The notes under the pieces were generated by a model. It was not told where the DNA came from, searched no databases, and saw only the letters and a program-made list of their open reading frames with translations. This document shows positions 27,571-46,691 of a stretch of 64,000 nt of DNA, in pieces. The position numbers and the translations under genes were made by a program. Position 1 is the stretch's first letter; every line of letters begins with the position of its first letter. Origin of the DNA: Lentinula raphanica (lineage: Eukaryota > Basidiomycota > Agaricomycetes > Agaricales > Omphalotaceae); contig JANVFP010000023.1 of NCBI GenBank assembly GCA_027919835.1, positions 124,001-188,000 on the forward strand, read 5' to 3'.

Positions 27571-27741
27571 ATAATCTCGTACCCAGATGTTCTAGGGAAC
27601 TCCGGCATCCCAGTGCCGCGAAAATACAAATGTAAATAATCGAACAAACAAAAAAACAAACATCGGGTCGTTCCCTAGAACATCTGGTGCATTTCGTAAC
27701 CAGGGGGGCGCCTCGATACACAGCCACCGCCAGCGTGACAT
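27571..27741 (-). repeat. Hairpin element, copy A
   Basis: A perfect 18-bp inverted repeat (CCAGATGTTCTAGGGAAC at 27583-27600 and its complement at 27670-27687) encloses a 69-nt loop with an A/C-rich core. A 39-bp flank at 27688-27726 is shared with copy B (one mismatch). It lies 0.36 kb upstream of the BTG/Tob gene. See copy B and findings. Confidence 0.8.
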
Positions 27742-28114: not shown

Positions 28115-28283
28115 ATGTCACAGTGGCTGTGTATCGAGGCGCCCCCTTGGTTACGAAATGCACCAGATGTTTTACAACGCAACACGGTGTTTGTTTTTTT
28201 GTTTGTTCGAATGTTTACATTTGTATTTTTTTTCTGTACCGTGGTGTAGTACGCGTTGTAAAACATCTGGGAACGAGATTAGT
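28115..28283 (+). repeat. Hairpin element, copy B (opposite orientation to copy A)
   Basis: Same plan as copy A but inverted: 18-bp arms CCAGATGTTTTACAACGC (28163-28180) and the complement (28253-28270), a 72-nt loop, and the shared 39-bp flank at 28124-28162. The loop core is nearly identical to copy A in reverse complement, but six of the inner nine arm bases differ, and each difference is matched on the other arm. Confidence 0.8.
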
Positions 28284-32002: not shown

Positions 32003-33819
32003 TCAGTTAGCTCGCGTCGGTGAACCAGTTCCATCCTGTCCAATCAGACTTTTTCCGAAACGATTCAAGAAAGCGAACTGGAGGGAGATTGATTCGTCAG
32101 GACTCTTGTCAATTGACTCCCCTTCATCCTCAATGTCGGATGAAGGTTGCTCTTCCGGATCCGCTCTTTCCAGCCAGAAGCCACATCAACATAACAGGAA
32201 ACGAACTCACCCGGCGTACAGGCAGCATACGCTTGCCATTTTTGTGCAAGTGAGATTGGAAACTCCATGACAGGTATGTTCTTTGTCTTGCTGACAATGA
32301 CAGGGATGTTCTGTGTCCCGCTGACCGTAGTAGGCGTGTTCTCGTTCTTGGTGATCATTGATTTCAGTTTCGAGAATCGAGATGTCTTCTCCGTCTTCGT
32401 CGTGGTCTTCTCCGTCGCCGTCATTGTCTGCTCCGTCGCTGTCGTTGCCTGCTCCGCCTCCGTCGTTGTCTTTGCGGGTTGGCGATAGAAGAAGGTAACA
32501 AGATTTCGATTTTTGATATCAGCTGAACGATGAGGTTGGTAGTTCAAGTCTGGATTGAAGACCTGACAACACCGATGTAACCGCAATGCAACACAATGTG
32601 GTCCCAAGAATCAGTACCACTCGTATGACCAAGTTTGAGAGTAGAACTCACCAGACCGGGACTGCTGCCCTCTATCCGACCAAACACGGCACACTTTTAA
32701 TCAATTGCATGAGTACATGATAATACCTTGAATGTGGAGAAAAACAGGTACGAAATGGGTAGGGCTTATTTTCTACCAGTCTGAGACTTGAGTATAGATC
32801 TTGGAGGAAAGAACAGAAAGGGAAGAGACGTACATGAGCATCATGAGGCATTCCTCTTTCATTGCCATTGGCAATTTCCCACATCTCCAAGGCCCATTCG
32901 GGCTTTGGGCGCTCTTTGAGAAGATACAAAAAAGTATTTGCAAATGGGTATAGAGACAATCCAGGGATCTTTAGGTAATTCAGAAAGCTAGGCTCTACAT
33001 CCTTGGGCTTTCCATCCTCGGGCTTTTTATCTTGTATGTAGATGGAAATATGTTCACTCTGTGATGGAAAGAAAAACAGAGTAGACGAAAGTGCATGTAA
33101 GTCATAGAAGGGATTTTCAATTTGTGGCAACTTACTGGAGGATGAACGGAACCATACGCAAAGCCCAACAGCACATCACCCTCCTGTTTTGGCTCCTGGC
33201 GAGGCATTAGGTGAATCAGATGGTCTGAATGATTCGTAAAGTTGAGCTCGGGGTGAAGACTATCAGTGGAAGAAAGACTGTCGAGGACTCGACCGTGAGC
33301 ATGGGCACCGGCGTCGTATTCGGTTCGGGGAGGAAAACTCGAGCCACCGTCATCTTCGCGCAAGGGGTCATCAAGACTAAGTTCGATCTGGGTACTGGTA
33401 TCGATGTCGTCAACGTCGATACGATCTTGACCAGTGGGTACGGAATCGGTCTGGCCATGATCATGAGGAACCTGAACTGTTGCTGAAGGCAGAATTGGTG
33501 CGAGTGAAGAGAAAGAGGGCTCGAACAGACTCGGACTCGAAGTGTCCAAAGACGTTGGTGCAGAAGTCTGAGGAATAGGAGACGCAGCGACGGAATATCC
33601 AAGAGTTGTGGTCATGGCTCCCAGTAGAGCAAAACTCGTGGCAAGTACAACCACAACTCCAACTACAGATAATTGGGATCTGCCAAACGGACGACGACGA
33701 CGACGGGGAGAGGTCAGGTCTTGAGCTTGAGCTGTGGTCGGCCAAACGCGACTCGGAGTTTTTGAGGAAATAAATTCGGCAAGAGGGTCATAGAATGAAG
33801 AGCGAGATTGGGAAGACAT
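32003..33819 (-). CDS. Tandem orphan family, copy 1 (single-pass membrane or secreted)
   Basis: Six exons: 33819-33136, 33058-32834, 32772-32752 (21 nt), 32693-32652 (42 nt), 32562-32211 and 32121-32003; 480 aa. A Ser-rich cytoplasmic start (MSSQSRSSFYDPLAEFISS) and a basic cluster RRRRRPFG precede a ~25-residue hydrophobic segment (VVGVVVVLATSFALLGAMTT), the pattern of a type II membrane anchor or an uncleaved signal. The outer part has a Ser/Thr/Asp-rich stalk, then IPGLSLYPFANTFLYLLK and MPHDAH. The 21-nt exon encodes KISPTHF; the next begins CAVFGRI. The last large exon holds FFYRQP, a Thr/Glu repeat (TTATEQTMTATEKTTTKTEK) absent from the other copies, and AQKWQAYAACTP. Copy 1 has the longest tail. 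Function unknown. Confidence 0.8.
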
Positions 33820-34795
33820 TGCGAAGGATGTATTGAATTTTCAGAGACCAGCTCTGAATCCAATGAAAGCGAGCAAGTACAATAGACGGTGAAAGGAAGA
33901 AAGAAAGATCAGACGGGTGGGAAAAGATCGAAATCTGTTCAACGATGCTCAGCTGCAATGCGCGAATATTGCACGGGGACTCGCCCGAAATTCGGCGCTC
34001 GAAGATCGAAAGTGGGTCGAAGCAGCTTGGAGCCTCATATATCATAGGTCAGTGGATTATTGAGGCCCTTTGAGGCCTCAGGATATCAGTTACTTACTCG
34101 TAGTTCACATAAGTATCGCGATTAGCGTTTACTCCAAGACGCGTCCAGTGTGCCGGTGCATGGAATTTCTGGTTCATGAATGTCACTCGGTGGGCCATGC
34201 TGCTCGGAAAACCATGAGTGAGAGCTATGTACATCGTCAGATCTGAGTTTCGACAGAAGGTGGCAGGGGAAAGTTCAACTTGGGATGCCACTGCCAGTAA
34301 CCAACGCCGGGTCCAACGAGAACGAATGTACAAGACCCTGTTCGATGAGCCGTTGATATCTGCGCGAAAGTTGAATGGTTACAAACCCAGCTTCATCTGG
34401 CTGAGGATCAGACTGAGCGATGGCAAATTGCAATGAGTCTGTCCATCAATTGCAGCCCAGTGAATTTATTCAGTGCCACCGTTGAATCGTTCACGTTATG
34501 TAGTGCCAAACTCCGAAGGTCAAACTTGAACAACCTGATATCAATGGGCGAAGATTGTGCCAAACCAGCTCTCGATCATGAGTATGAGATTGGTATAGAT
34601 CATTCTATAGTCATCCGAAAAAGAAAATCCACATATCCTCCGATTCCTGAGTCTCTGCTTCAATCCACCCGGAGTAGCCCGGAGTATACATATGCATAAT
34701 CTCAAAATGAAGTCCGTTAAGTCATTTGAGCCAACCAATCCCATCCCTTCCAATTAGCCTTTTTCGGGAGTTTCGCAGGCGACGCAACTAGAGAT
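33820..34795. other. Between tandem copies 1 and 2
   Basis: Upstream region of copy 1 (shared promoter block to about 34130) and 3' flank of copy 2. Plus-strand ORFs at 34218-34699 are unsupported. No RNA gene seen. Confidence 0.45.
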
Positions 34796-36369
34796 TTATT
34801 CATCAGCACTTTTGTCGACTGCCTTACCTTCATCCTTCATCCTCAATGATGGACGAAGGTTGTTCAACGTCTGCTTTTTCCAGCCCAAAAGCCACGTCGA
34901 ACTTATGACAGGAAACACAAAAACTCACGCGGCTTACAATAAGCATATGCTTCCCATCTACCTGCAAGTCTCTGTGGAAATTCCACGACAGGTATCTTGG
35001 TGTTGGTGAACTTTGATATCAGTTTCGAGAGTACGTCCGTCTTCGTCTTCGTTTCTGCCTTTGGGGGTTGGCGATAGAAGAAGGTAACAAAGTTGGAATA
35101 CTGGATACTAGCCGAAGTATCGGGGTGATAGTTCAAGTCTCGATTGATAGCCTGATATCACCAATGTGATCAGTACAACTCGTATGACGGTTGACCAAGG
35201 CCGAGAGTAAAACTCACAAGACTGGGACTCTGGGAGTCCTCTGGGATCTTGGCATACACTCCACACTGTTATTAATTGCATAAGTACATAGTGTGAATAC
35301 CTTGCATGTGGAGGAAAACAGCCACTTACAATATGGCAAGGGGTTCTTTTCTGCAGGTAGGTATAAGACTAAGTCTAGATCTTCAACAAAAGAACGAAGA
35401 TAGAAGAGACATACATGAGCCTCTTGAGGCATTCCTGCCTCATTCTCATCACGATCCCACATCCCCAAGTCCGAGTTGGGCTCCGGTTGCATTTTCAGAA
35501 GATACAAAAAAGTATCCGCGAATGGCTCTAGAGACAATCCAGGGATCTTGAGATCCCTCAAACCAGGATGGATATCATTCGGTCCCAGTTCCTTCCTGCT
35601 AGATCCTACGTAGCCGGGTTTCTCCAAATCCTACAAACAGACGAACGAACGAACGAACGAATGAAAGAGGGATGTATATAAGTCATGGAGGGAATATGTT
35701 CTCGTTTGTTGGGCAACTTACTTTTTTTGCAACAGAAGTATGGTACGCAAAACCCAACAGCACATCACCCTCCTGCAATGGCTCCTGGCGAGGGTTGAGG
35801 TGAATCAGATGGTCCGAATGATTCAAATTGAGCTCAAGGTGAAGACCGTGAGCACGGTCACTGGCGTCGTATTCGGTTCGGGGAGGAAAACCATCATCTT
35901 CGTGGAACGGGTCGTCGTGAGTTTTGATCTGGGTAAGAGAAGCGGTATCGATGTCGTCAACGTCGATACGATCTTGACCAGTGGGTACGGAGTCAGTCTG
36001 GTCATGAGGAGCCCGAACTGCTGCTGAAGGCAGAATTGGTGCGAGTGAAGAGAAAGAGGGATCAAGCAGACCCGAACTCGAAGTGTCCAAAGACGTCGGT
36101 GCAGACGTCTGAGGAATAGGAGACGCAGCGACGGAGTATCCCAGAGTTGTGGTCATGGCTCCCAGTAGAGCAGAACTCGTGGCTAGTACAACCATAGCTC
36201 GAACTACCGAGAATTGGGATCTCATGCCAAACGGACGACGACGACGACGGGGAGAGGTCAGGTCTTGAGCTTGAGCTTGAGCTGTGGTCGGCCAGACGCG
36301 ACTCGGAGTTTTTGAGGAAATGAATCCGACATCAGGGTCATAGAATGAAGAGCGAGATTGGGAAGACAT
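34796..36369 (-). CDS. Tandem orphan family, copy 2
   Basis: Exons 36369-35722, 35630-35415, 35350-35330 (21 nt), 35265-35218 (48 nt), 35151-34929 and 34827-34796; 395 aa. Same plan as copy 1: basic RRRRRPFG, hydrophobic VVRAMVVLATSSALLGAMTT, acidic Ser/Asp stalk (QDRIDVDDIDTAS), then the conserved block IPGLSLEPFADTFLYLLK and MWDRDENEAGMPQEAH. The micro-exon encodes KRTPCHI; the next gives CGVYAKIPEDSQSPSL. The end is KFTNTKIPVVEFPQRLAG, CKPRKAVDKSADE. It lacks the Thr/Glu repeat and long tail of copy 1. Intron 1 contains a (GAAC)n microsatellite near 35640-35660. Function unknown. Confidence 0.8.
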
Positions 36370-37231
36370 ATTGAAATTTTAGAAAGATGGTTTGGACTCG
36401 AGAGACCAGCTCTGAAACCAATGGAAGTGAACAAGTATCGATAGATGTTGACGTGGAAGAAAGAAAGAAAGAAAGGGTAGGTAGGTGGGAAAAGACCGAA
36501 TTTGTTCGACGAGGCCCTGCAATGCGCGAATATTGCGCGGGGAGGTCCGAAATACGGCGCTCGAGGGTCGAGAGTGGGTTGAAACAGCTTGGAGCCTGAT
36601 GAGAAGCCACAAACAGGTCAGTGGATTATTGCGGCCTCTGGATATCAGTTACTCACTCGTACTAGCTCACATATCGCGATCGGGGTCTACTCCAAGACTA
36701 TGTAGTCTAGTTCTGAGTTCAGGGTCTGAACGTTAACCGTAGCTCGGCCATTTCCTTATTTGGTTTCACGTGCTTATCACGTTTACCGTGTTGACGTATG
36801 ACGTAGCTCTCCGACTGCCAATGAAAATGAATTTCTATGCGTCTCATTCACCTACGTTACCCTCATACGCGTGAAGAATCAGGAAGAATCGATGCCGACG
36901 TCAACTCATAAAGCAGTGCAAATGTTTTCATTCAATCCAAAAGTGACCGAGCATTACTATCTCAAATCATTCAGTTATATGTGCCGTTTCGACCTCCCGA
37001 CTACGTGCTTGAAGGAATTGTGGTTGTGCTAGATGGACAAGACCTGGTCGCAATTAACCCACAGGATCAGGCAAGACTGGTCATATTGCTTATACAGCAC
37101 TCGTGGTCCGTGAATTGAGCGTACACCCCGAAAAATACCTCGAAGTTGGAAACACAGCACAGAAGTTTCTGCAGAATCCACTCATGATAGCGATATGTCC
37201 AACAAACTACCTTGAGTATCAGCTGGTAAGC
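36370..37231. other. Upstream region of tandem copy 2; unique sequence beyond
   Basis: The first ~350 bp is the conserved upstream block. From about 36740 to the transposon the sequence has no match elsewhere in the window and no credible ORF. Confidence 0.4.
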
Positions 37232-37674
37232 CATCTTGCAGGACCTCGGAAGCTCCTGCAGAACCTCGGAAGCTCCTGCAGAACCCCGCCCAGCTGAAAG
37301 GTCTGAAGTACGCTACGTTTTCGCCCCAAAGTACGCTAATTCGGAGAGGGATAGTCACGTGGAAGCCAAAAATCGCTCCAAAATGGTCAAAAATTCGTAA
37401 AAAATCGCTGACAGCATTTTTGATGTGAATTCTAGCGCAAGAACTTGATTGGAGAATCGCTGGCCGGCTTGTCATCGGAGAACCCACATCCACATCTGGT
37501 ATAGACAGGCCTAGATTTGAGAAATTTTGGCCTTGAAGTATGCTAAATCGGACAAGGCCTGTCTCAAGTACGCTAATTTTTCCCATTTCCGGACAAGGAA
37601 AATGCCAAAATCGGGTCCTGAAGTACGCTAATTTGGGCGGGGTTCTGCAGGAGCTTCCGAGGTCCTCATCTTGC
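37232..37674. mobile_element. 427-bp MITE-like element with 8-bp target duplication
   Basis: The element runs 37240-37666. It is flanked by direct copies of CATCTTGC (37232-37239 and 37667-37674), an 8-bp target-site duplication as made by hAT-type transposases. The termini are inverted repeats beginning AGGACCTCGGAAGCTCCTGC and running ~33 bp to the CCCGCCC block; the left end carries an extra tandem copy of ~21 bp of the repeat. Inside are five direct copies of AAGTACGCTAAT or close variants (near 37306, 37329, 37536, 37566 and 37621). There is no coding capacity, so it is non-autonomous. Confidence 0.82.
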
Positions 37675-37977
37675 ATCAGAAAGTAAATAAAACTCACCAT
37701 TCCTATCATCAGGAAGAAAAGATGACAGCTATTGGTCTGACGATACTTGTAATCAATGATATTCAAAGCCGAAGCTCAACAGGCACAGGCTTCTCTCGGA
37801 TAAACATACAATTCCACATGATCTCCTCGGAATGTCTGCTGTGATCCACCTGGAGTAGCCTGGAGTGTATCCACATAATCTCAACATCAAGTCCGTCACC
37901 AAGCCAAATAACCCCATTCCTTCCAATTAGCCTTTTTCGGGAATTCTTGAAGCAAGTGGACTACATAGAGATAAAGT
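37675..37977. other. 3' flank of tandem copy 3
   Basis: Contains the unit-3 version of the 3' flank shared with unit 2 (CCTTCCAATTAGCC near 37918). No gene. Confidence 0.45.
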
Positions 37978-39569
37978 TTATTCATCAGCACTTTTTGTCG
38001 ATTGCCTCACTTTTATGCTCAATGATAGATGAAGACCATTCTTCTGCTCTTTCCAGCTCCAGAAGGCACATCGAACTTATGAGAGGAAACACGAAGAAAA
38101 AAAAACTCACGCGGCTTACAAACAGCATATGCTTCCCATTCACCTGCAAGTATCTCTGGAAATTCCACGACAGGTATCTTTGTGTTGGTGAACTTTGAGA
38201 TCAGTTTCGAGAATACGTTTGTCTTCGTCTCTCTCTTTGGGGGTCGGCGATAGAAGAATTTGACGCGACCTCGATCCTCGATCCTACTAGGTGGACTATC
38301 GCGGTGATAGTTCATGTCCGATCGGTGATCGACGATCTGATATCACCAATGTAATCAGTACTACTCGTATGACCAAGGCTGAGAGTGGAACTTACAAAAC
38401 CGCCGAGACTGAAGCCCTTTGGGATCTTGGCATACACTCCGCACTGTTATTGATGGCATGAGTACATAGAGTCAATACCTTGCATGTGGAGAAAGACAGT
38501 TACTTACAAGATGGCTAGGGTTTGTCTTCTGCCGGTATATAAGACTAAGTCCAGATCTTCAACAGACGAACAGATATAGAAAAAGACATACATGAGCCTC
38601 ATGAGGCATTCCTGCCTCATTCTCATCACGATCCCACATCCCCAAAGCCGAATTGGGCTCCGGTCGGTTTTCCAGAAGATACAAAAAAGTATCCTCGAAT
38701 GGCTCTAAAGATAATCCAGGGATCTTGAGATCCCTCAAACCAGGATGCATATCGTCCGGCCCCAGTCCCTCCCTGCTACGAAATCCTATGGTGCCGGATC
38801 TTTCTAAATCCTGCGAATGGACGGACGAACGAACGAACGAAAGAGGGATGCACATAAGTCATGGAGGGGAATTGGTATCGTTTAATGGTTGGAAACTTAC
38901 TGCCTCTGGAAGGGAAGTATGGTACGCAAAACCCAACAGCACAAGATACTTCTGCAATGGCTCCTGGCGAGGTTTGAGGTGAATCAGATGGTTCGAATGA
39001 TTCAAATTGAGCTCGAGGTGACGACTGTCAGTGGAAAAAAGATCGCCAAGGACTTGACCGTGAGCACGGTCACCGGCGTCGTATTTAGTTGTGGGAGGAA
39101 GGCTCGAGCCACCGTCATCTTCGCGGAACGGGTCATCACGACTAAGTCCAATCTGGATACTGGTATCGATGTCGTCAACGTCGATACGGTCTTCAAGACC
39201 AGTGGGTACGGAGTCAGTCTGGTCATGAGGAACTCGAACTGTTGCTGAAGGCAGAATTGGAGCGAGTGAAGAGAAAGAGGGATCAGGCAGACCCAAACTC
39301 GAAGTGTCCAAAGACGTCGGTGCAGAAGTCTGAGGAATAGGAGACGCAGCAACAGTATATCCCGTTGTGGTCATGGCTCCCAGTAGAGCAGAACTTGTGG
39401 CTAGTACAACCACAGCTCGAACGACCGAGAATTGGGATCTGCCAAACGGACGACGACAACGACGGGGAAAGGTCAGGTCTGTGATCGACCAGACGCGACT
39501 TTTTTTCAAGGAAATGAAATCTGACTCGGCAAGAGGGTCATAGAATGAAGAGCGAGACTGGGAAGACAT
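37978..39569 (-). CDS. Tandem orphan family, copy 3
   Basis: Exons 39569-38901, 38810-38592, 38528-38508 (21 nt), 38443-38396 (48 nt), 38336-38111 and 38009-37978; 404 aa. Anchor region RRCRRPFG then VVRAVVVLATSSALLGAMTT. The stalk has RIDVDDIDTSIQIGLSRDDP. The conserved block reads IPGLSLEPFEDTFLYLLE and MWDRDENEAGMPHEAH. The micro-exon encodes KTNPSHL; the next CGVYAKIPKGFSLGGF. The last exons give KFTNTKIPVVEFPEILAG, YAVCKPLRQSTKSADE. Compared with copy 2, an extra A in the last exon is offset by a different splice point, so the same KSADE end is kept. A (GAAC)n run lies in intron 1. Function unknown. Confidence 0.8.
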
Positions 39570-39965
39570 TGAGAAAGACGAATTGGATCTGGGAGACCAG
39601 CTCTGGATCCAATGAGTACAACAGATGGTGGAAGGAAGGAAGAAAGAACAGATGGGTGGGAAAAGGTTGAAATCTGTTCGACGAGTTTCTGCGATGCGCG
39701 AGTATTGCGCGGGGAGCCCCGAAATTCAGGGCTGGAAGGTCGACTCAGCAGCTGGGAGCCTGATAAGAAAAGGTAGGTCAGTAGATTATTGAGGCCTTTG
39801 AGGCCTTAGGATATCAATTACTTTACTCGTAGTTCACATATCGCGATGGTCTATTCCAAGACGCGTCTGGCGTGTTTACATAATTTGTCAACTCACATAT
39901 TCACGTTTTCGGTTTTCGGAGCCGAATCGCCAATGACGAACAGAATCTGATCTTGCAGTGCAACG
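39570..39965. other. Divergent promoter region (tandem copy 3 / methyltransferase)
   Basis: Contains the unit-3 copy of the shared upstream block, then short unique sequence before the plus-strand methyltransferase start. No other feature. Confidence 0.4.
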
Positions 39966-42193: not shown

Positions 42194-43658
42194 ATGTTTA
42201 TCAACTCATTCAACTTCTCGACTCGACTACTTCTTCCTGTGCTTCTCTCCACTCTCTTAATCATGATGCGCCTTTCCGTGGTGACGGGTATACCGCTGCC
42301 CGCTGTAAACAATGGAAAGGCAAAGATTGCTGCCCGTACGTATGGTATTGTTTCGTCTGGGGTTGTACTAATCACATAGAATTTCTGCTCCCAAGACCTT
42401 GATCATGACCGATATGATAGTACGTTTGTTATCGATTGAGGTTCTTCGTACGATTCGATCTAACATTGCCCAAAATTCAACCACAGCCTACGGGCCTTCT
42501 TCCGAAACGGAGCATGATGATGGTAGGTGTACTATTGATGGAGGTTTTTCGTACGATTCGATCTAACATTGCCCAAGGTTCAACCACAGCCTACGGGCCT
42601 TCTTCCGAAACGGAGCAAGATGATGGTAGGTGTACTATTGATGGAGGTTTTTCGTACGATTTGATTCAAGATTTGCTCAACGTCCGTCTCCAGTTTACCT
42701 GCTTCCTATCATCAACGAAGAGAATGATAGTACGTTCCAGTCACTTCGATTGAACGAGTCAATCTAACATCGCTCAAGTTCCAGCTCTAGCTTACGCGCC
42801 TCCTACCACTGAACACAAACAAAATGATGGTACGTTGGGTATTCATTCGTTTGAGGTCCTTCGAACGATTGAATCTGATTTTGTACAAGGTCAAACTCCA
42901 GCTCAGCCGCCTTCCCACCACACCAAAGGCGGTACGTTTATAGTTGACTCGGCCGAGTTCTTGAATCTCATAATTGGGTCTCTACTATTTAAAATCCAGC
43001 TGTGTTCAGCAAAGATCGTTTATTCATACTGCGGATACAGGAGAAGGCGGAAGGGGTAGAAGGGCCCGTTCTCTACTACTCGGATACGCAAGGATTACGA
43101 CCGTGCATCAACGAAAATTCAGAATGGAAGTGGCCTGTCAACTGGCCTTGGGTCATCGAGGATGTAACGTCGCCTCGAGAGACGGTTCTACAGCTGAAAA
43201 TAGTCGCTGTCTTCGGTATCCGAGCTGGGAAGAACGTGGAAGAAGGAAGAGAGGCCCTAATCAACCAGCTGAAACTCACCATGTTTCAGGCCGAACATCA
43301 TTTTGTCCAGGCTGCGATCCAAAAGCTCTTGACCTATAACCAAAAAAGATTCCAGCTACTGTACCTAGACAGAAAATGGGAGAAGGAACTGGAGTCGCTG
43401 GTCATGAAAGATAGATTTAGGTGGAGAGACGGAGAGTACAAGAAGTTGTTGAAGAAGTATGTGGAAGATGCGGAGAGGAAGGTGAAAGCGCAGGAGCTAA
43501 ACGACCCAGAGGAGGATGAAATCTGGTGGAAATTGGAAAAGTTGATATGGAACAATTGCATGCAGGGTCATGGAATGCGCCCAAATATAGCCGGGCTGGC
43601 GAGGAAGGGAAGAGAATGTCTGTCGCTCCCGATCAGAGTCAGAATCCAGAGATGGTAG
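42194..43658 (+). CDS. Secreted orphan with serially duplicated micro-exons
   Basis: Eight exons: 42194-42335, 42396-42419 (24 nt), 42487-42522 (36), 42590-42625 (36), 42694-42729 (36), 42791-42829 (39), 42902-42931 (30) and 43000-43658; 333 aa. Exon 1 encodes a signal peptide (STRLLLPVLLSTLLIMM, then SVVTGIPLPAV). Six micro-exons, all multiples of 3 and all in phase 1, encode a linker of near repeats (TYGPSSETEHDD, AYGPSSETEQDD, VYLLPIINEEND). Exon 8 carries the conserved domain: RLFILRIQEK, GPVLYYSDTQGLRP, NWPWVIEDV, LQLKIVAVFGIRAG and LEKLIWNNCMQG. The intervening introns are themselves near copies. For exon 42791 an acceptor 6 nt upstream is also in frame. Paralogous to the gene ending at 45525. 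Family not recognised. Confidence 0.82.
42420..42901 (+). repeat. Tandem duplications of an intron plus micro-exon unit (~103 bp)
   Basis: The units 42487-42589 and 42590-42693 are near identical: their exons differ by one base and their introns share TTTTTCGTACGATT(C/T)GAT. The intron before them (42420-42486) and those after (42730-42790, 42830-42901) are more diverged copies of the same pattern. Confidence 0.85.
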
Positions 43659-45093: not shown

Positions 45094-45168
45094 AAGGACG
45101 AGAGCGTGTGAATTTGGTGATTCCCACTGCCCAGTAATCACCAAAAAACATTTCATAACAATCAACTA

Positions 45169-45253
45169 TGCATTAAGGGGGAATCGAACCCCCGGCGGGT
45201 CGAAAAGCATCACTGCAGTGGCAACGACCCAGGTTACCACACCCCATTAATGC
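45169..45253 (-). tRNA. tRNA-Gly (GCC anticodon), intron-containing
   Basis: Minus strand: acceptor GCATTAA/TTAATGC, discriminator A, D stem GGGT/ACCT, anticodon stem GGTCG/CGACC, loop T-T-GCC-A, T stem GGGGG/CCCCC with loop TTCGATT. A 15-nt intron follows position 37. The acceptor end is typical of eukaryotic tRNA-Gly. Confidence 0.87.
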
Positions 45254-45524
45254 ATCAACAACTTATGGCTATGATCTATCTAGCACCAGAATATGTATCT
45301 TTCCAGCGGCACTGACACTACATCCACAATCGGTCTATCCCCGACTTTACCGCTCAGGCAACCGCCGCGATGTGGGGTCCAGTGGCAGTTTTTCAACTGG
45401 ATTTTTTTCTGCAAAGGACGACTCAGCAATGGACGGTGCCAGCCTGACAGGTGAGACGGCGGTCGCCGTTAAATATCATACATATTTAGCACACATACTA
45501 GACAGCTACTCCGTAATACCACAG

Positions 45525-46691
45525 CTAGTCCTTCCGAGGTCTGACTTTCATTGGAAGGTCTTTGCATCGTTGCGCCGTTTCCACCAGATGGCGCACACTA
45601 TTGCCGCCTTGGGTTGTCCCTTCGCAATTGTTCCACAACAACAACTCCAACCCCGACCAAAAGTTCGCTAACGGCGCTCTCCTAATGTGCGGGTGGTCCA
45701 AGTTCAGCATTGACGCAAATTCCAACATCCTCGTCAACCTCTCCTTGTACTGGATCTCCCAGCTCTCCAAACTCTCTTGTACACGGGGCTCCAATCCCGC
45801 GTACCAGTCTGGGTCTATTTTCTCCAAACCCTTAATCAGGCGTGAGTCGGACTGCAGGTACTCTATTACAAGCTGGACAAATGGCCATTGCCCCTGGAAG
45901 CCCTGGGAATAGAAGCGCAATATCAGCGAGAAAGGCAGCTCATTGATGAACGCTTGAGCACCGTGCTCGGTCGTAGCTCTGGTAACAAAAACGGCAACCG
46001 TCTGCAATTTGGAAACTATTTCTGCATCCGATCTGACTTCTTCCACTCCCCAAGGCCTGGTACATGCAGAAAAGGTGATCTCCGTGTCGAGTACTGGTTT
46101 ATATCCTTTCGTGTTTGTATAGTAGAGCACTGGGTCCATCCCATCGCTCCCTTCCTGTATCCGGATCCGAATCACACGAAACTCGTCAACTTTTTCTATA
46201 CGTATTTGGTTTTGAAAAAAATATCAGATAAAATCATGACATGAGAACTGCAAACGTACTTTTGGTTTTTGGATCTATCACATCCCCGCCAAGTGGTCCT
46301 GTAGTTTAAACAACATTAGATCAAGGCCCTCAGAGCAACTGTACACAAACGTACCAGCGTCAATAGGAGGCAATGATTCAGCCTTGATAAGAGGCGACGG
46401 TGATTCAGCGTTGATGCGAGACGATGGGGATTCAGCCTTGATGTGAGACGATGGGGATTCAGCCTCGACATGAGACGAAGGGGATTCAGCCTTGACGTGA
46501 AGCGGTGATTCGGCCTCAACGGGAGGCGACGGTGAACGGGCCAGGATGTGCGGCGATGGTGTACCAGCCTCAACAAGAGGTACTGGTAATGGTTTACTCG
46601 TCACCATCACACCCGGGTTATCAGAGAAGACAGTCGAGAGGAGGAGCACAATGAACAGTAGTCGAGTAGAGAATAATGAATAAAGAATCAT
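45525..46691 (-). CDS. Secreted orphan with tandem-repeat linker (paralogue of the micro-exon gene)
   Basis: Three exons, 46691-46355, 46298-46260 (39 nt) and 46189-45525; 346 aa. Exon 1: signal peptide (MILYSLFSTRLLFIVLLLST), PLPVPL just after it, then about seven copies of a 9-10-residue repeat (AESPSSHVE, AESPSSHIK, AESPSSRIN, AESPSPLIK). The 39-nt micro-exon encodes GPLGGDVIDPKTK. Exon 3 is the conserved domain: FRVIRIRIQEG, DPVLYYTNTKGYKP, RPWGVEEV, SKLQTVAVFVTRA, LELLLWNNCEG and a basic end LPMKVRPRKD. The phase-1 exon plan is the same as in the gene at 42194-43658, but there the linker is spread over six micro-exons. Family not recognised. Confidence 0.8.

Follow-up and report, generated by a model that had tools for sequence, protein, structure and literature searches.

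Schistosome micro-exon genes (MEGs) encode proteins with a predicted signal peptide from runs of very short symmetric exons, which by the definition given in PMC4350168 make up most of the coding region. One exon duplication is mentioned there for the MEG-3 family (PMC4350168), and MEG introns are put at 0.1-5 kb in PMC10526429. The exons themselves are short, mostly multiples of 3 and up to 81 nt long. In a second described system, tandem exon duplication with intronic breakpoints, an exon and an intron are repeated head to tail with equal phase on both sides. Among fungal secreted proteins, the yeast flocculins have tandem-repeat regions. The SP7-like effectors of arbuscular mycorrhizal fungi have a signal peptide and a conserved intron preceding imperfect hydrophilic repeats, and are reported solely from Glomeromycotina (PMC11333574). 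A micro-exon whose inclusion alters the protein has been described in a filamentous fungus, in Xlr2 of Trichoderma virens (PMC11121469).

Here we describe a predicted gene, M1, in a window of 64,000 nucleotides (bases 124001-188000 of the 838,391-base contig C23) from the 49-Mb genome of Lentinula raphanica. This mushroom is a wood-inhabiting relative of shiitake and is reportedly mentioned in a paper on the wild edible mushrooms of Brazil. Like the schistosome MEGs, M1 has a run of very short symmetric exons (24-39 nt, within the MEG size range), preceded by a hydrophobic N-terminus that may be a signal peptide, and exon duplication is a feature that it has in common with the MEG-3 family. 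M1 had been proposed to be a fungal analogue of these genes. The sequence and an independent public gene model support one part of this proposal, namely a fungal gene in which a predicted signal peptide is followed by symmetric micro-exons that have been duplicated. However, the micro-exons account for 20% of the M1 coding region (201/1002 nt) as opposed to most of it in the MEGs as defined in PMC4350168, and the M1 introns are 60-72 nt long as opposed to the 0.1-5 kb given in PMC10526429. In further contrast to the MEGs, most of the M1 protein consists of a folded domain, and its isoforms are putative. M1 has the adjacent units of common origin, the shared phase and the intronic breakpoints of a tandem exon duplication, but its unit is merely 103 bp and the array sits where two related L. 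raphanica genes (C11 and C23:651k) have a single intron. The parts of M1 come in an order similar to that of the SP7-like effectors (PMC11333574), but in M1 every repeat occupies a separate exon and the array is followed by a folded domain. Finally, Xlr2 is presented in PMC11121469 as a transcription factor with a single regulated micro-exon, whereas M1 has a duplicated array. No earlier fungal array of duplicated micro-exons was found among the matches listed in the literature searches, which covered titles and abstract openings mostly from outside the subscription literature.

A predicted array of frame-neutral micro-exons

Joining the eight M1 exons (Table 1) gives an open frame of 333 residues, in which all six internal exons are multiples of 3 and are flanked on either side by phase-1 introns. 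The coordinates, lengths and phases are as first proposed, and they agree with a deposited L. raphanica protein, C8R42DRAFT_725223 (P0001, 341 residues), which is 98% identical to our starting model over its full length. Splicing of the window reproduces P0001 at 341/341 residues with the same eight exons, except that the acceptors of exons 4 and 7 each lie 12 nt upstream. An independent gene caller therefore reached the same predicted structure. We conclude that M1 has a genuine and unusual anatomy: predicted micro-exons, duplicated and frame-neutral, arrayed in a fungal gene.

Table 1. Features of M1 and its inverted neighbour M2, in coordinates of the window
Feature	Position	Strand	Details
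M1 exon 1, coding the predicted signal peptide and the first part of the tail	42194..42335	+	142 nt, phase-1 end; matched in P0001
M1 micro-exon 2, LDHDRYD	42396..42419	+	24 nt; copy relation to the other micro-exons unsupported in alignments
M1 micro-exon 3, YGPSSETEHDD	42487..42522	+	36 nt; 35/36 identical with micro-exon 4
M1 micro-exon 4, YGPSSETEQDD	42590..42625	+	36 nt; in-frame acceptor 12 nt upstream gives 42578-42625 (choice of the public model)
M1 micro-exon 5, YLLPIINEEND	42694..42729	+	36 nt
M1 micro-exon 6, YAPPTTEHKQND	42791..42829	+	39 nt; in-frame AG also 6 and 12 nt upstream
M1 micro-exon 7	42902..42931	+	30 nt; in-frame alternative acceptor gives 42890-42931 (choice of the public model); marginal copy
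M1 exon 8, coding the folded domain, which carries the NNC...C pair conserved in the family, and the stop	43000..43658	+	
M1 tandem duplication, period 103 bp	42438..42661	+	42438-42558 vs 42541-42661, 117/121 identical; intronic ends
M2, inverted neighbour of M1	45525..46691	-	repeat-containing first exon 46691-46355; micro-exon 46298-46260 (39 nt, phase 1); domain exon 46195-45525
27-nt minisatellite coding the repeated tail of M2, inside one exon	46375..46532	-	

The region between exons 1 and 8 could instead be read as one ordinary phase-1 intron (42336-42999), with the apparent micro-exons being an intronic minisatellite. Consistent with this, exon 1 joined directly to exon 8 encodes an open protein of 266 residues, and the C11 and C23:651k genes have a single phase-1 intron at this place. 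Such an intron would be 664 nt long, however, about ten times as long as the remaining modelled introns (52-72 nt). Furthermore, the M1 exon lengths differ by multiples of 3 whereas the intron lengths (60, 67, 67, 68, 61, 72 and 68 nt for introns 1-7) do not, and the tail peptides are present in the public model and four deposited M1-like proteins. Chance was assessed with a splice model, chosen after the gene had been seen, that uses GTRNGT donors, AG acceptors, a branch-like motif, introns of 45-90 nt and exons of 15-60 nt, and that demands a chain that spans all 664 nt and leaves the reading frame open between exon 1 and the stop. Applied to M1 itself, the model gave chains of up to six micro-exons by 14 paths. 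With this post hoc model no such chain appeared in any of 3000 dinucleotide shuffles, in which 6 bases at the start and 13 at the end were kept fixed, or in any of 2065 other segments of the window, and the shuffle result further argues against a single intron. Overall, we consider the one-intron reading very unlikely.

A less stringent search for successive symmetric micro-exons, covering both strands of 143,997 bases, listed the six of M1 and three runs that had two each; no other run of three or more was present in those bases. Elsewhere in the window, three tandem gene copies occupy 32023-39867 on the minus strand. They are 73-77% identical over 1.6-2.1 kb and have a signal-peptide-like start, MSSQSRSSFYDP; two of the three (donors 38591 and 35414) permit a symmetric run of two micro-exons, 21 + 48 nt.

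Origin and splicing of the array

The array contains a near-identical tandem repeat, as originally described, although its best tract is not the pair of units at 42487-42693 but the one listed in Table 1, whose first copy runs from intron 2 into intron 3. A whole exon was thus duplicated with intronic breakpoints; the most recent event copied a unit of 103 bp that begins and ends within introns. Introns 3 and 4 as wholes are identical at 56/68 positions, next to the exon 3 and 4 match given in Table 1. When aligned globally, every one of exons 3-6 and introns 2-6 matches some partner better than any of 300 shuffled pairs, and these are copies of one another. Exon 7 is barely above the shuffled maximum (best 23/39, against 0.58); for exon 2, as for introns 1 and 7, no partner exceeds the 300 shuffled pairs. 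The original prediction that the remaining micro-exons are all divergent copies therefore has partial support: it holds for exons 3-6, is marginal for exon 7 and finds no support for exon 2. An assembly artefact was also considered as the source of the duplication and is unlikely, the copies differing at 4/121 positions in the best tract and at more beyond it.

Any subset of the micro-exons had been predicted to be removable without loss of frame, and all 64 skip subsets are indeed open and in frame. This is what would be expected of a micro-exon gene design, in which varied skipping generates a pool of tail variants from one gene. Such a design could also draw on the in-frame twin acceptors at exons 4, 6 and 7, and on the 14 in-frame chains, found under a splice model whose intron limit leaves skipping no room. 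However, symmetry follows automatically once a phase-1 exon and its introns duplicate, so symmetry alone is no proof of skipping; the 64 open subsets exist because a phase-1 unit was duplicated, and hence are no sign of regulated skipping. The M1 introns are also short, which makes diversity by skipping in the schistosome manner less likely. For Schizophyllum commune, PMC5034255 assigns 1% of the called alternative-splicing events in coding regions to exon skipping and 43-44% to intron retention. This low share argues against skipping, while the junction-level count in the same source, 1,527 skipping events versus 7,851 alternative sites in coding regions, indicates that skipping is less rare than 1% and stands in favor of the design (PMC5034255). 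On balance, we regard skipping in varied combinations as an unlikely account of M1.

Retention of any single M1 intron introduces a premature stop, except for intron 6 (72 nt), which stays open. By eye, the deposited models choose differently between the twin acceptors, and the likeliest splice variants are therefore small changes in length at acceptors.

We favor, as the probable explanation, that the M1 tail has grown by exon-intron duplication, with mainly constitutive splicing and a tail length that varies between strains. Intron size is a general guide to intron definition. The short M1 introns would be excised singly by this means, so that the micro-exons would be mostly constitutive, an argument that draws on intron size and on a different species, S. 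commune. Each further duplication of an exon and its intron would add one in-frame unit, or about 12 residues of tail. Variation in tail length would then be mainly allelic, with minor in-frame variation arising from acceptors 12 nt apart. That strain-specific unit duplication and in-frame choice of exons and acceptors together set tail length, yielding a pool of secreted isoforms from one locus, seems to us unlikely.

The predicted protein

The N-terminus of M1 is hydrophobic, with a helix predicted at residues 6-27 at low confidence, and on this ground the protein is predicted to be secreted. The micro-exon-encoded segment is acidic and contains tyrosine as foreseen, with a net charge of -13 and five Tyr over 75 residues. 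It had been described as a linker between the signal peptide and a conserved domain. It is encoded between the two, but after cleavage it would form the N-terminal tail of the mature protein. In a full-length structure prediction (7 sequences), block means of pLDDT were 24-29 for residues 31-120 and 64-91 for residues 131-330, and the tail is likely to be disordered. The domain predicted alone gave a mean pLDDT of 82.4 and a pTM of 0.80, and had no match to a known domain or fold. Two cysteines, one in an NNC or KNC motif and one near the C-terminus, are kept in 6/6 members of the gene family, a pair that would suit a disulfide in a secreted protein. A KEX2-processed peptide precursor, with repeats set apart by dibasic KEX2 sites, was considered and rejected, the tails of 4/4 deposited M1-like proteins having no KR, RR, RK or KK.

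The gene family and variation of the tail

Protein searches and tblastn identified at least six family genes in the same genome: M1, its inverted neighbour M2, C11, C23:651k and two genes on contig C31. The C11 and C23:651k genes consist of a signal-peptide-like exon, one 52-nt phase-1 intron and a domain exon, without an array. In one C31 gene, Tandem Repeats Finder detects a 42-nt/21-nt repeat (L017 1657-1739) within the predicted domain exon. Peptides repeated in a similar way occur in the other C31 gene, where the program lists no such repeat at score 30. M1 and M2 have a common upstream stretch, inverted and 73% identical over 98 nt. These arrangements probably go back to an ancestor with one phase-1 intron, after which M1 and M2 would have acquired repeats by two routes. 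Between M2 and a TauD-like dioxygenase gene lies a tRNA-like gene of uncertain anticodon (45168-45254, minus strand), and an inverted repeat elsewhere in the window (27621-27727 / 28123-28229) is 90% identical over 109 aligned columns. Searches of a protein collection, which reach only relatives sharing short exact words, returned six distinct proteins, all from L. raphanica (3/1329, 5/4781 and 1/550 candidates).

For two relatives, the orthologues in different L. raphanica records are nearly alike (263/269 and 257/263 identical). The M1 relatives vary much more: against P0001, the M1-like proteins P0002, P0003 and P0005 are identical at 255/316, 174/296 and 118/136 positions, respectively, although P0003 may represent a paralogue and not an allele. 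Counted by eye, there are six tail units in P0001 and P0005, four in P0002 and about four, of divergent sequence, in P0003, which suggests that the number of units differs between records. Because the counts come from deposited protein models and not from DNA, an absent unit may reflect a mistake in gene calling; P0002, for example, retains intron 1 as coding. P0001 and P0002 are identical over their last 79 residues and 60-80% identical in each of the five preceding 25-column blocks, a mosaic that suggests recombination between alleles or between copies.

The high divergence between records, together with P0005, a truncated protein of 147 residues from the FB446DRAFT deposit with an apparently different last-exon acceptor, might be taken to indicate that M1 is a decaying or strain-specific pseudogene whose repeats are inconsequential. 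We find this highly improbable, given the open frame in the window and in 3/4 deposited M1-like proteins, the identical C-terminal residues of P0001 and P0002, and the cysteine pair retained throughout the family.

If the tail has grown by duplication as we propose, it may space a folded, probably disulfide-bonded domain from the wall or from a partner, or it may be a fast-changing exposed surface. M1 and M2 carry repeats in the same part of the protein, built in M1 as duplicated micro-exons with their introns and in M2 as an in-exon minisatellite. Together with the paralogues that have neither repeat, they form a small natural experiment on how a repeat region grows, and on whether several 24-39-nt exons in a row are tolerated, or put to use, by splicing in fungi.
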